Below are positions 2,602-40,044 of a DNA stretch of 64,000 nt, in pieces. The position numbers and the translations under genes are program-made. Source of the stretch: Bacteroides fluxus YIT 12057 (GTDB lineage: Bacteria > Bacteroidota > Bacteroidia > Bacteroidales > Bacteroidaceae); assembly GCF_000195635.1 (NCBI RefSeq), contig NZ_GL882619.1, forward strand, positions 38,015 to 102,014, read 5' to 3'. Below the pieces are notes generated by a model. That model made no database searches, was not told the DNA's origin, and was given only the letters and a program-made list of their open reading frames with translations. Each line of letters starts with the position of its first letter. The stretch's first letter is position 1.

Positions 2602-2718
2602 CTCCCGAACCTACGCTTTCAGAAAATATCATAAAATTGCAAATCATTGATAATCATATATTATCTACAATGCAGAGTAAATCTAAATCTTTCTAAATGC
2701 CTTTTGCTATTTCAATTT

Positions 2719-2758
2719 TTGGGTGTATATTTGGGTGTAGAATTTCAAACGCACCCAA
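2719..2758. repeat. candidate integrase arm-type sites, left end
   Basis: TTGGGTGT occurs at 2719-2726 and 2731-2738, starting 12 bp apart, followed by an inverted CACCCAA at 2752-2758 just before the integrase ATG. The same pair with the same 12-bp period lies at 14516-14535 near the other end. Matching short repeats at both ends of a tyrosine-recombinase element suggest arm-type integrase or excisionase sites. Confidence 0.55.
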
Positions 2759-2760
2759 TT

Positions 2761-4044
2761 ATGAATATCAAACGTAACATCATTTTTGCATTGGAGAGCC
2801 GGAAGAAGAACGGTGTGCCAATCGTAGAGAACGTGCCTATCCGTATGCGTGTCATATACGCAAGCCAACGCATCGAGTTTACAACAGGCTACCGGATTGA
2901 CGTAGCCAAATGGGATGCCGACAAACAACGGGTAAAGAACGGATGCACCAACAAGCTGAAACAAAGCGCATCCGAAATCAATGCAGACTTGCTGAAATAC
3001 TATGCCGAAATGCAAAACGTGTTCAAGGAGTTTGAGGTGCAGGAAACCATGCCCACCACCCAACAGCTAAAGGATGCGTTCAATCTGCGGATGAAAGAGA
3101 GCAGTGAAGAACAACAGGAAGAAGCACCGATTAGTTTTTGGGAAGTGTTTGATGAGTTTGTAAAAGAGTGTGGCAACCAGAATAATTGGACGGCATCCAC
3201 ATACGAGAAATTTGCAGCGGTGAGAAATCACATCAAAGAGTTCAAGGAGGATGTAACCTTTGAATACTTCAACGAATTCGGGCTAAATGAGTATGTCAAT
3301 TTCTTGCGTGACAAAAAGGACATGAGAAACAGCACCATCGGTAAACAAATGGGATTTCTCAAATGGTTCCTGCGTTGGAGCTTCAAAAAAGGACATCATC
3401 AGAACATTGCATACGACGCATTCAAACCCAAATTGAAAACAACCCCTAAAAAGGTAATATTCCTGACATGGGATGAACTGAACAAACTGAAAGATTATCA
3501 TATACCGCATGACAAACAGTATTTGGAACGTGTCAGGGATGTCTTTCTGTTCTGCTGCTTCACGAGTTTACGATATTCGGATGTTCGTAACCTTAAAAGA
3601 AGTGATATTAAACCCGACCACATTGAAGTCACCACAGTCAAGACTGCGGACAGCCTGATAATCGAACTGAACGACCACAGCAAAGCCATTCTTGAAAAAT
3701 ACAAGGATGTTCATTTCGAGAACCACATGGCATTGCCTGTCATAAGCAATCAGAAGATGAACGATTATCTGAAAGAACTGGGTGAACTGGCAGAAATCAA
3801 CGAACCTGTACGGGAAACCTACTACAAGGGAAATGAGCGCATAGATGAAGTCACACCCAAATACGCATTGTTAAGTACCCATGCCGGAAGAAAGACTTTC
3901 ATCTGTAATGCGTTGGCACTCGGAATTCCGGCACCGGTGGTTATGAAATGGACTGGACACAGTGATTACAAAGCCATGAAGCCCTACATTGACATAGCGG
4001 ATGACATCAGGGCAAACGCCATGAACAAGTTTAATCAACTATAA
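2761..4044 (+). CDS. int: tyrosine recombinase / integrase of the element
   Basis: A 427-residue tyrosine site-specific recombinase. The N-terminal arm- and core-binding part (about 1-220) is followed by the catalytic domain. Visible catalytic residues: Arg in FTSLRYSDVRN, His and Arg in STHAGRKT, His in WTGHSDYKAM, and the nucleophile Tyr in MKPYID. The ATG at 2761 was chosen because it starts MNIKRNIIF as in related integrases, and because a longer reading from TTG 2647 would run through the arm-site repeats. It should catalyse integration and excision at the tRNA-Ser site. It is the first gene inside attL and reads into the element. Confidence 0.9.
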   Translation: MNIKRNIIFALESRKKNGVPIVENVPIRMRVIYASQRIEFTTGYRIDVAKWDADKQRVKNGCTNKLKQSASEINADLLKYYAEMQNVFKEFEVQETMPTTQQLKDAFNLRMKESSEEQQEEAPISFWEVFDEFVKECGNQNNWTASTYEKFAAVRNHIKEFKEDVTFEYFNEFGLNEYVNFLRDKKDMRNSTIGKQMGFLKWFLRWSFKKGHHQNIAYDAFKPKLKTTPKKVIFLTWDELNKLKDYHIPHDKQYLERVRDVFLFCCFTSLRYSDVRNLKRSDIKPDHIEVTTVKTADSLIIELNDHSKAILEKYKDVHFENHMALPVISNQKMNDYLKELGELAEINEPVRETYYKGNERIDEVTPKYALLSTHAGRKTFICNALALGIPAPVVMKWTGHSDYKAMKPYIDIADDIRANAMNKFNQL

Positions 4045-9434: not shown

Positions 9435-10838
9435 ATGGCAACAAAATCAAGCATACATATCAAGCCTTGCAACATCGCATCGAGCGAGGCACACAACCGA
9501 AGGACTGCCGAGTACATACGCAACATCGGAGAGTCCAGAATCTATGTCGTTTCCAAACTTTCCACCAATAACGAGCAGTGGGTAAATCCTGACTTCGGCA
9601 CTACCGAATTGCGGACACATTACGACAACATCAAACGGATGGTCAAGGAAAAGACCGGACGTGCCATGCAGGAGAAAGAACGTGAACGCAAAGGCAAGAA
9701 CGGAAAAATCATCAAGGTGGCAGGGTGTTCACCTATCCGTGAGGGGGTGTTGCTCATCAGAGCGGACACCACATTGGCAGATGTGCATAAATTTGGCGAG
9801 GAGTGCAAACAACGCTGGGGTATTACTCCGCTGCAAATCTTCCTGCACAAAGATGAAGGACATTGGCTGAGCGGACAACCCGAAGCTGAAGACAGAGAGA
9901 GTTTCCAAATTGATGGAAAGTGGTTCAAGCCGAATTATCACGCTCATATCGTTTTCGATTGGATGAACCACGATACAGGAAAAAGCTGTAAACTCAATGA
10001 CGAGGATATGACCGAAATGCAAAGTTTGGCTTCTGACATTCTCCTGATGGAACGAGGACAATCTAAAACCGAAACAGGCAAGGAACATCTGGAACGTAAC
10101 GATTTCATCATAAAGAAACAGAAAGCCGAACTGCAACGTATAGAGGAAACCCAAAGGCACAAGAAGCAGCAGGTAACTCTTGCTGAGCAAGAACTCAAAC
10201 AGGTAAAATCGGAAATACGCACCGACAAACTCAAAAGCGCAGCTACCGATGCAGCCACAGCCATAGCAAGCGGTGTCGGTTCTCTTTTCGGAAGCGGAAA
10301 ATTGAAAGATTTGGAACAAACTAATGAGAATTTACGTCATGAAATTGCCAAGCGTGACAAGGGTATTGATGAATTAAAAGCCAAGATGCAACAAATGCAG
10401 GAACAGCACGGCAAGCAGATTCGTAACCTACAAGGAATACATAATCAAGAGCTTGAAATCAAAGACAAGGAAATATCACGATTGAACACCATTCTTGAAA
10501 AAGCGTTCAACTGGTTCCCTTTACTCAAAGAGATGTTGAGAATGGAAAAATTCTGCTATGCCATCGGATTTACCAAAGATATGGTAAACAATCTTTTGAC
10601 AAAAAAAGAAGCAATCAGATGCAATGGGAAAATCTATTCCGAAGAGCATAGACGAAAGTTTGACATAAAGAACGATATTTTCAAGATTGAGAAAAGTTCG
10701 GTTGATAATAATAAATTGGTGCTTACAATAAACAGGCAACCGATAGGCGAATGGTTCAAAGAGCAATGGGAGAAACTCCGGCAAGGTTTACGACAATCAG
10801 CGGAAGAGCCAAGAAAAAGTAGAGGATTCAAGCTATAA
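9435..10838 (+). CDS. mobV: MobV-family relaxase
   Basis: A 467-residue Pre/Mob (MobV) relaxase. The N-terminal nuclease domain carries the family motifs SSEAHNRR (about 16-23), HKDEGHW (His near 138) and NYHAHIVFDW (His-X-His near 168-170), the metal-binding histidine triad. Residues about 215-370 are a long coiled coil. In transfer it nicks oriT, stays bound to the strand end and escorts it through a helper conjugation system. It follows the hairpin array by 50 bp, as expected for a relaxase and its oriT. Confidence 0.9.
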   Translation: MATKSSIHIKPCNIASSEAHNRRTAEYIRNIGESRIYVVSKLSTNNEQWVNPDFGTTELRTHYDNIKRMVKEKTGRAMQEKERERKGKNGKIIKVAGCSPIREGVLLIRADTTLADVHKFGEECKQRWGITPLQIFLHKDEGHWLSGQPEAEDRESFQIDGKWFKPNYHAHIVFDWMNHDTGKSCKLNDEDMTEMQSLASDILLMERGQSKTETGKEHLERNDFIIKKQKAELQRIEETQRHKKQQVTLAEQELKQVKSEIRTDKLKSAATDAATAIASGVGSLFGSGKLKDLEQTNENLRHEIAKRDKGIDELKAKMQQMQEQHGKQIRNLQGIHNQELEIKDKEISRLNTILEKAFNWFPLLKEMLRMEKFCYAIGFTKDMVNNLLTKKEAIRCNGKIYSEEHRRKFDIKNDIFKIEKSSVDNNKLVLTINRQPIGEWFKEQWEKLRQGLRQSAEEPRKSRGFKL

Positions 10839-10872
10839 TTCCACTCTATATAATGCAAAACATCAATAAAAT

Positions 10873-10884
10873 AACTAATTTTGC
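10873..10884 (+). promoter_or_regulatory. possible promoter of the cargo operon
   Basis: The stretch AACTAATTTTGC around 10873-10884 contains TAATTTTG (10877-10884), a TAnnTTTG -7 box. A transcript from here would include the whole structured leader at 10944-11090 and then the cargo genes. A convincing -33 TTTG is not visible. Confidence 0.4.
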
Positions 10885-10943
10885 ATTCGGATAGGGGCAA
10901 CTCTTTCCAAGACATAAGAAAAAGAAGCGTTATGCTCATCTTG

Positions 10944-11090
10944 TAACTTGAAAACCTGAGAGCCTTTCAAATTTGATGCAAGAGATAGCATAGTGGTTCT
11001 CACGCATATAGCGTGGGCTGCTATCGTTGTATCTGCATCATAGGCTTTCTCAGGGCCGTCAAGTTAGATTGACATAGGTAGTCCACGCTT
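10944..11090 (+). ncRNA. nested hairpin leader RNA with alternative pairing
   Basis: The sequence folds into stacked helices: TAACTTGA/TCAAGTTA (10944-10951 with 11059-11066), CCTGAGA/TCTCAGG (10955-10961 with 11048-11054), GCCT/AGGC (10962-10965 with 11042-11045), TGATGCA/TGCATCA (10974-10980 with 11034-11040), GATAGCA/TGCTATC (10984-10990 with 11019-11025) and CTCACGC/GCGTGGG (10999-11005 with 11011-11017). In addition, 11010-11021 can pair over 12 bp (two G-U) with 11078-11089, just before TTTTG. The pairings exclude each other, as in attenuators or riboswitches. I do not recognise the class. Confidence 0.6.
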
Positions 11091-11141
11091 TTGTATTTAA
11101 TAACCTACCCTGTTGGACTGATGGGCGAAAAGGAAAACGAT

Positions 11142-11705
11142 ATGGAACAAAAATTCTGTCAAAGCTGCGGAATGCCGCTAACAAACGAAATCCTCGGTAC
11201 GAATACCGATGGCACACTCAATGAAGATTATTGCATCTACTGCTACAAAGATGGCAAGTTTGCGCAGGATATGACTATGGAGCAGATGATTGACCACTGC
11301 GCCCAATTCACTGATGAGATAAACAAACAGTCAGGACAGAACTTGACACAGGAACAGGCTAAAGACATGATGCGTCAATTCTTCCCTCACCTTAAACGCT
11401 GGAAAAATAGACTCGTTATGTTTATTGCAATTCTCACATACAAAAAGCCGTTGAGCGAGGTTGATAACTATCTGAGTGCGCACCGTGAATATCTCGCCAA
11501 ACATTATGCCATCGGAGATTTCATAACATCTGGGCCACAGATCCCTCGCATTGGTGGCGTGATAATGATAAAAGCCAACAACCGTGAAGCGGTTGATGCT
11601 ATTATTTCCGAAGATCCGTTCCACATCAACGACATTGCCAACTATCAGATTGTGGAATTTACCCCGACAATGTTTTGCAATGAAGAGTTGAAAACAATTC
11701 TATAA
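11142..11705 (+). CDS. zinc-ribbon plus YCII-like domain protein
   Basis: A 187-residue protein (start at ATG 11142, MEQKFCQSCG, after AAGGAAAA; an upstream TTG reading would overlap the RNA leader). The N-terminus has a putative zinc ribbon with CQSCGMPL and CIYCYKDG (about residues 6-9 and 29-32); the C-terminal 95 residues (RLVMFIAILTYKKPLSEVDNY) resemble a YCII-related ferredoxin-like fold. Enzymatic role unknown. First gene of the cargo operon; its stop overlaps the next start by one base. Confidence 0.65.
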   Translation: MEQKFCQSCGMPLTNEILGTNTDGTLNEDYCIYCYKDGKFAQDMTMEQMIDHCAQFTDEINKQSGQNLTQEQAKDMMRQFFPHLKRWKNRLVMFIAILTYKKPLSEVDNYLSAHREYLAKHYAIGDFITSGPQIPRIGGVIMIKANNREAVDAIISEDPFHINDIANYQIVEFTPTMFCNEELKTIL

Positions 11706-14567: not shown

Positions 14568-14582
14568 TTGCGGAGAGACGGG
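14568..14582. repeat. right attachment-site copy (attR) in tRNA-Ser
   Basis: This is the 15-bp sequence identical to 2587-2601. Twelve of its bases are the 3' end of the tRNA-Ser(GGA) gene, so integration here leaves the tRNA intact. Confidence 0.75.
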
Positions 14583-14658
14583 GATTCGAACCCCGGATAC
14601 CCTTTAGGGGTATACACGCTTTCCAGGCGTGCCTCTTCAACCACTCGAGCATCTCTCC
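14571..14658 (-). tRNA. tRNA-Ser (anticodon GGA)
   Basis: An 88-nt tRNA on the minus strand. The acceptor stem GGAGAGA/TCTCTCC, T-loop GGTTCGAATCC, long class II variable arm (GTATACCCCTAAAGGGTAT) and anticodon loop CTGGAAA give tRNA-Ser(GGA). Only CA of the CCA end is encoded. It is the target of the 12-kb element. Confidence 0.95.
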
Positions 14659-39675: not shown

Positions 39676-39744
39676 AGAAACAAGTAAAGATTATCGTAAA
39701 ATCACATTGCGCACTACCCACTTTCCTCGAATGGATAATTTTTC

Positions 39745-39935
39745 GACTTTGTTTTGCAGGTCTTCTGACTCGTTTCCGGTACATCGCCTTCCCGTTCTTC
39801 TTAATGAACAGTGGCATAAAGATACAGGATGCACCCAATTTTGAAACTCACAGCAGCGGGACTGTCCGGGACTTTCACCCGATTCCCTTTTCATCCAACC
39901 CCTCCGAACAGAAGGATGCGGAACAAAACATCGGC
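39745..39935 (-). promoter_or_regulatory. cobalamin riboswitch
   Basis: On the minus strand the conserved cobalamin-riboswitch parts appear in order: GGGAATCGGGTGAAAGTCCC (39868-39887), GGACAGTCCCGCTGCTGTGA around 39849-39868, and the B12 box AGTCAGAAGACCTGC (about 39756-39770). It lies in the leader of btuB, where B12 binding is expected to reduce expression of the uptake operon. Confidence 0.88.
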
Positions 39936-40044
39936 AAAGATAGGGAAAATAGATAAAAAAATGAATAGTTTTTCATACTATATCCTCAAAATAAAGTAAC
40001 TTGCAGACAATTTCAACAGGAAGTGTAAACAAATCAGTATAACC

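Follow-up and report, generated by a model that had tools for sequence, protein, structure and literature searches.

What kind of element separates the relaxase-type gene from the cargo genes of a mobile region in Bacteroides fluxus YIT 12057, and could it act on the genes behind it? The DNA at issue (contig NZ_GL882619.1, positions 38,015 to 102,014) is 64,000 nucleotides (nt) long and is called the window hereafter. A first-pass annotation of its sequence described positions 10944 to 11090 as a leader RNA in which nested helices compete with an alternative pairing, in the manner of a switch. The comparisons in this study support a conserved RNA structure, a leader position, and a pairing between a switching strand, S3, and the loop of a hairpin, P5. 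I consider it fairly probable that 10889-11128 is a cis-acting two-state mRNA leader with its own promoter, which would control an accessory gene about 54 nt downstream, and that it represents one copy of a large Bacteroidales family.

The nested helices proposed for 10944-11066 are borne out by folding, as they form the minimum free energy (MFE) structure of 10920-11130, at -71.3 kcal/mol versus -51.5 (standard deviation 3.9) in 200 dinucleotide shuffles (z -5.1), none of which is equally stable. The alternative pairing exists as well: between 11010-11021 and 11078-11089 all 12 positions pair, 10 as Watson-Crick and 2 as G-U pairs. The feature is larger than first noted, and adds a promoter box, a 5' hairpin (P0), an outer closing helix and a second partner of S3 at 11113-11121. 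The strands are numbered 2 for the inner arm of the rod formed by helices P1-P4 (11010-11021), 3 for S3 and 4 for the loop strand of P5; the possible partners of S3 are the 5' end, the rod inner arm and the hairpin loop near the start codon.

Relatives of the element were compared in several samples. A sequence-only alignment, A1, contains 41 sequences, 37 of them distinct, drawn from 46 distinct sequences without the incomplete elements L008, L024, L064 and L087 and without L002, where the search motif failed. A covariance model was built from these 41 sequences, with a match threshold of E <= 0.001. Two alignments that lean to the model, A3 and A4, comprised 165 rows; 14 were removed (13 antisense matches and one weak same-strand second match in L194), and removal of duplicates resulted in 135 distinct elements. 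The deep set consists of 80 representatives with less than 85% identity, damaged copies such as L024 and L087 still being included. In the swap tests, segments cut from A3 and A4 were paired with their own helix partner or with partners exchanged between unlike copies of these 80.

Compensatory changes, the check suggested by the first-pass annotation, are abundant in the nested helices. In A1, 96.4% of the cells of P1-P4 are paired versus 87.7% in shuffles, 13 pairs show a double change versus 8.1, and 110 cells carry such changes versus 29.1, the last two values being reached in 0 of 500 shuffles. The P2 strands GTAGGAAA/TTTCCTAC, for example, are replaced by CTGAGAAA/TTTCTCAG in relatives, and distant members show the same fold with other helix sequences. 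Own partners outperform swapped ones in P1 (-5.6 versus -0.8 kcal/mol; better than 90% of swaps in 74/80), P2 (-7.4 versus -2.9; 43/80) and P3 (-4.1 versus -0.6; 65/80). The evidence is weaker for P4 (-13.7 versus -11.2; 25/80), because its sequence is conserved. In the outer helix a single pair covaries (G-C 29, A-U 18, G-U 14, unpaired 4, of 65, as 15 of the 80 representatives lie outside the search motif), with 61 paired versus 53.2 in shuffles and 0 of 2000 shuffles as high, while the swap test on the whole strand gives no signal for this helix (7/80, mean rank 0.36). A further pairing, PX, between a 5' TATCTTGT and ACAAGGATA in the rod, was striking by eye in single relatives; it was dropped from the model after a weak swap test (18/80, mean rank 0.60). 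Outside the covarying helices, conserved nucleotides persist over deep divergence, which is compatible with a riboswitch and no proof of one.

Elements of this kind are followed by differing genes, and of 60 loci where the 3' end of the relaxase gene is intact, 30 have the element and 30 lack it (3 of these at a contig end). Both observations would suit a folded-DNA recombination site, similar to the attC site of integrons, at which cargo inserts. However, the plus strand yields a consensus energy of -29.2 with 47 pairs and the minus strand one of -16.1 with 29 pairs, and single elements are more stable on the plus strand in 77 of the 80 representatives. Since the minus consensus is poorer and the plus strand folds better in those 77, the selected molecule is, judged from sequence comparison, the plus-strand RNA. 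The plus consensus structure holds 367 G-U versus 14 A-C combinations, an excess that a plus-strand prediction favours by construction; hence the minus strand was folded too, and its own prediction holds 103 G-U and 24 A-C (the deep-set count, 545 to 49, comes from an alignment fitted to the model). The selection on either strand as single-stranded DNA that characterizes attC-like sites was thus not found, and the copies are located 5' of genes, at a preferred distance and with a promoter, which makes a recombination site very improbable.

This location also speaks for an mRNA leader. Among the 135 elements, 123 are followed by an open reading frame (ORF) of at least 60 amino acids starting within 300 nt, and in 79 of these the start codon lies 45-63 nt past the element, the next fullest 19-nt bin holding 10. 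The Bacteroides-type -7 promoter has the consensus TAnnTTTG. This box, or a version one base longer, occurs at most 110 nt upstream in 67 of the 80 representatives (79 of which have 110 nt of upstream sequence), versus 13% in mononucleotide shuffles. For the 63 of 80 with a suitable box, the P0 region folds at a mean of -6.9 versus -3.0 in mononucleotide shuffles, with p <= 0.05 in 32. A conserved structure with covariation and a preferred same-strand 5' position with a promoter, two of the properties expected of a cis-regulatory leader, are both found. An own promoter, a 5' hairpin, a compact rod and a U-rich tract would also be in keeping with a stand-alone small RNA that ends at this tract, the downstream genes being mere read-through neighbours. 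However, this would not account for the preferred spacing of the start codons, nor for the covariation of S3 and P5 just before them, and I regard it as improbable; a 6S-like RNA in particular is disfavoured by the position before start codons.

In the window a gene does follow, as the first-pass annotation claimed, though it does not start directly at the TTTTG behind S3. The likely start codon is ATG 11142, which lies 51 nt beyond the end of the element (11090), because the Zn_ribbon_2 match of the protein begins at residue 5 of that reading. Another in-frame ATG is present at 11121; the relative L026 has no ATG there and does have the one that corresponds to 11142.

A short upstream open reading frame (uORF) at 10932-10946 could be translated. 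Of the 61 close representatives 50 have its ATG, and of the 19 distant ones 1 has it (the size of the distant group depends on the rule, being 17/69, 18 or 19; the counts for this ATG and for the U-rich tract use 61 and 19), and frame 0 closes within 9 codons in 48/51, versus 32/51 and 16/51 for frames +1 and +2. With tetQ- or erm-type leaders as the model, ribosomes on the uORF (MLIL* and variants) would melt the 5' strands of P1 and P2 and so set the pairing of S3, the inducer being a translation inhibitor or the translational state. The first genes include a MUN beta-lactamase (L003) and, below the models' cut-offs, a relative of lincosamide nucleotidyltransferases (L156), which would agree with such a translation-coupled attenuator. 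However, distant members have the same fold and position almost without the ATG, most cargo is not antibiotic-related, and the frame comparison rests on related sequences, and I consider this explanation unlikely. The uORF was dropped as a universal trait, as it is absent in distant members; it may be a lineage-specific layer.

Within S3, CAGTTCC, which precedes ACGCTT and makes up the 5' half, is complementary to the loop strand of P5, a relation seen by eye and then swap-tested: own 3:4 partners pair at -8.7 versus -6.4 kcal/mol for swapped ones and exceed 90% of swaps in 31/80 (mean rank 0.72), versus 7, 10 and 10 of 80 in three controls (mean ranks 0.44-0.52). The flanks of P5, in the 61 representatives with 3:4 at -6 or better, pair at -5.8 versus -2.9 and exceed 90% of swaps in 34. 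In the window element, evaluated through its identical copy in L162, 3:4 has -9.5 and P5 -4.8. Because the outer helix and 3:4 use different halves of S3, the 3' and the 5' one respectively, both can coexist with the rod. The 2:3 pairing reaches -10 kcal/mol or better in 72/80, and 55/80 combine 2:3 at -8 or better with 3:4 at -7 or better. L027 carries a P4-weakening change with a matching one in S3, and L178 and L196 show joint changes of the strands. The native inside of the stretch from inner arm to S3 folds better than shuffled versions (mean z -2.1; below -1 in 63/80), and the 8 positions after S3 contain on average 5.2 T in close and 5.9 in distant representatives, versus backgrounds of 2.4 and 2.1.

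Several results weigh against a two-state leader. Within 10889-11160 of the window the nested fold is preferred, at -82.7 versus -72.9 kcal/mol with the alternative forced. Of the alternative pairing that the first-pass annotation put forward, the pairing as such holds, with 97.2% of cells paired in A1; its covariation there is not clearly above shuffles, because the strands are so conserved (cells paired 49/500, covariation score 31/500, double-change pairs 189/500). In the deep set it is weak too (14/80, mean rank 0.57; 0.67 for the variable parts, with 19 above 90%), and 8/80 have no 2:3 at -10. Furthermore, 3:4 at -6 or better is missing in 19/80 representatives, and among the 61 others 8 have their best strand 4 at the picked start codon or beyond it. 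The U-rich tract has another possible explanation, as a pairing partner for the A-rich outer-helix strand; the 2:3 hairpin encloses about 55 nt, which is unusual for an intrinsic terminator, and a scan restricted to loops of 3-8 detected no plus-strand terminator in 10800-11250. I conclude that 2:3 is probably a second state on the sequence evidence, and that transcription termination after S3 is possible.

The two-state leader that I favour would work as follows. In state F the outer helix, the P1-P4 rod and the pseudoknot of S3 with the P5 loop would be formed all together, through pairings that the comparisons support. In state T, which would exclude P4, the outer helix and the pseudoknot, S3 would sit on the rod inner arm, a conserved pairing with unproven covariation, and a G+C-rich stem would come to lie directly before the U-rich tract. 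A signal, for which a small molecule, a protein or, in the close group, translation of the short uORF are candidates, would tip the balance towards F or T. In state T transcription read-through might then be lower, P5 and the pseudoknot might gate ribosome entry at the start codon, or both might apply. The comparative data agree with the annotated leader RNA with mutually exclusive pairings; that it switches between two states, and thereby controls read-through, ribosome entry or both, is what I infer. A more specific and quite tentative version makes the element a signal-sensing leader, perhaps a riboswitch of a new class, that responds to a global Bacteroidota signal, with an aptamer-like fold, an S3/P5 pseudoknot platform and up to a dozen copies per genome.

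The nearest functional analogy is a multi-copy riboswitch or an attenuator. The cyclic di-GMP-I (GEMM) riboswitch occurs in multiple copies, mobile elements included, and stands in front of unrelated genes, frequently of the surface or secreted type. The present element seems similar in being one conserved leader class with several copies per genome and unrelated genes behind it; however, it has another architecture and no Rfam riboswitch match. The tetQ leader of CTnDOT acts by translational attenuation and resembles the present element, by description, as a Bacteroides mobile-element leader with a possible short uORF and alternative hairpins, although the cargo here is not a ribosome-protection gene and distant members lack the uORF. 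Attenuators of the Trp type, with 1:2, 2:3 and 3:4 pairings, have a middle strand with competing partners, as does the present leader; here, in contrast, the U-rich tract comes after 2:3 and not after 3:4, the latter pairing engages a loop strand close to the start codon, and a regulatory codon run is missing. The same bacterial group also has the roc leader, a regulated one, in B. thetaiotaomicron (PMC10294740). HMP_4078, a 109-bp palindromic candidate RNA that Fremin and Bhatt (2021, PMC8040213) located in Bacteroidetes close to D5_N and phage integrase domains, may be the core of the present element in an earlier automatic sighting; the passage on it assigns no function.

As the first-pass annotation supposed, the element fits no known class. 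At gathering score, the 4227 families of Rfam 15 match only a cobalamin riboswitch and two tRNAs in the window, all elsewhere; a permissive search of 10800-11200 gave two chance-level matches (E 2.8 and 6.9) below gathering, and 20 loci with distant homologs gave none. The CTGAGA in the element is not part of a thi-box, as thiamine pyrophosphate matches are missing at gathering score in the window and up to E 10 in 10800-11200. In the literature library that was searched, no description of this element was found. Relatives were found with BLAST in 60 of 119 genomes of the genus, 7 plasmid records and 1 phage record. With the covariance model, matches appear in 72 of 111 genomes of the genus, with up to 12 copies in one, in 64 of 247 order genomes (46 of 165 genera) and, in a phylum-wide draw, in 4 of 247 genomes, the window's own among them. 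Among the matches listed, the whole model is covered except in one from the genus and one from the order search. The leader of L003 had no blastn match in an E. coli collection. The family is thus large and apparently undescribed.

Individual copies show further variety. At L162 1501-1669, from a genome that belongs to a different family of this order, 169 bases are identical to the window element, an identity that points to recent transfer. Several copies lie within a few kilobases, on both strands, at L137 1501-2398 and L228 5001-7934, and in L194 the weak second match adjoins the first. In L008, L028, L030, L131, L137 and L214 the element ends with CACGCTT followed by GAACC or GAGCC, and all six share TGATACC....AG(T/C)TCCC some 60-75 nt further on; most have no ORF start at the usual distance, and this group possibly represents cargo-less copies or another 3' partner. 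For 19 of the 46 distinct copies no relative of the window relaxase was found in the fetched flank, which often spans only 1.5 kb. Element-free relaxase loci (e.g. L060, L068, L073) carry different genes and, by eye, a terminator-like hairpin after the relaxase gene.

The genes behind the elements are unrelated. The cargo set comprised 81 proteins, namely 80 of 86 non-redundant first genes (L157, L159, L170, L029, L143 and L015 were omitted) plus the DarT-type gene of L005; these contain 67 Pfam families, none in more than 2 proteins, and no common function was found among them. Defence genes were considered as the common cargo and rejected, as PADLOC matched only 8 families, with one protein each. 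The first genes are enriched for predicted exported proteins: among those of at least 150 amino acids, 53/63 have a hydrophobic N-terminus versus 72/226 other ORFs (Fisher p 1e-13), by a crude hydropathy threshold and with uncurated ORFs of the fetched loci as background. In the window itself the first cargo genes do not belong to this exported kind; the cargo set there encodes Zn-ribbon/YCII, GNAT, FMN reductase, double GNAT, SnoaL-like and tautomerase proteins.

In the window the feature (Table 1) sits between the relaxase-type gene and this cargo set, with an integrase gene (2647-4044) and DNA-handling genes also upstream of it. The relaxase-type protein has no Pfam or NCBIfam match of its own; its relative in L003, with 30% identity over residues 250-467, is annotated MobV. 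A direct repeat of 15 bases, TTGCGGAGAGACGGG, has its left copy at 2587-2601 and its right copy, which lies at a tRNA gene (14571-14658, minus strand), at 14568-14582; the two are likely the attachment sites of a 12-kb mobilizable element. Because of the integrase and relaxase-type genes and the repeat pair by the tRNA gene, the whole region looks like such an integrated element. To the left of it, 124-2490 holds genes that by eye resemble an arsenic operon (ArsR-type regulator, ArsD-, phosphatase- and Acr3-like); the cobalamin riboswitch mentioned above lies at 39738-39943 on the minus strand.

Table 1. Features of the leader region in the window, with the basis of each assignment.
Feature	Position	Strand	Basis
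Relaxase-type gene	9435..10838	+	directly upstream of leader; relative in L003 annotated MobV
-7 promoter box TAATTTTG, Bacteroides-type	10876..10883	+	match to consensus TAnnTTTG
P0, 5' hairpin at presumed transcript start	10889..10908	+	present in MFE
Outer closing helix, 5' strand GAAGCGT	10924..10930	+	pairs with 11085-11091 (ACGCTTT); one covarying pair
Possible uORF MLIL*	10932..10946	+	ATG 10932, common in close group
P1, 5' strand	10944..10951	+	pairs with 11059-11066; covaries
P2, 5' strand	10955..10965	+	pairs with 11042-11054; covaries
P3, 5' strand	10974..10989	+	pairs with 11026-11040; covaries
P4 apical hairpin, strands 1 and 2	10990..11024	+	includes inner strand 11010-11021
3' strands of P3, P2, P1	11026..11066	+	MFE and covariation
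S3, switching strand (CAGTTCCACGCTT)	11078..11089	+	12 bp with 11010-11021
U-rich tract after S3 (TTTTGTATTT)	11089..11098	+	T excess in relatives
P5 hairpin	11104..11128	+	loop strand 4 (11113-11121, TTGGACTGA) pairs with 5' half of S3
First cargo gene, Zn_ribbon_2 + YCII protein	11142..11705	+	domain match; spacing as in relatives

If the element is indeed a signal-sensing leader, dozens of unrelated exported or mobile cargo genes would be tied to one cue, and mobile cargo would plug into host signalling by carrying its leader along. A leader so common in gut Bacteroidales and absent from Rfam would be a major regulatory RNA of the gut microbiota without an assigned role. It would suggest that horizontally moved genes, some of them related to antibiotic resistance, bring a ready-made promoter and switch with them, and the leader family gives a concrete handle for finding the signal that these moved genes would obey.
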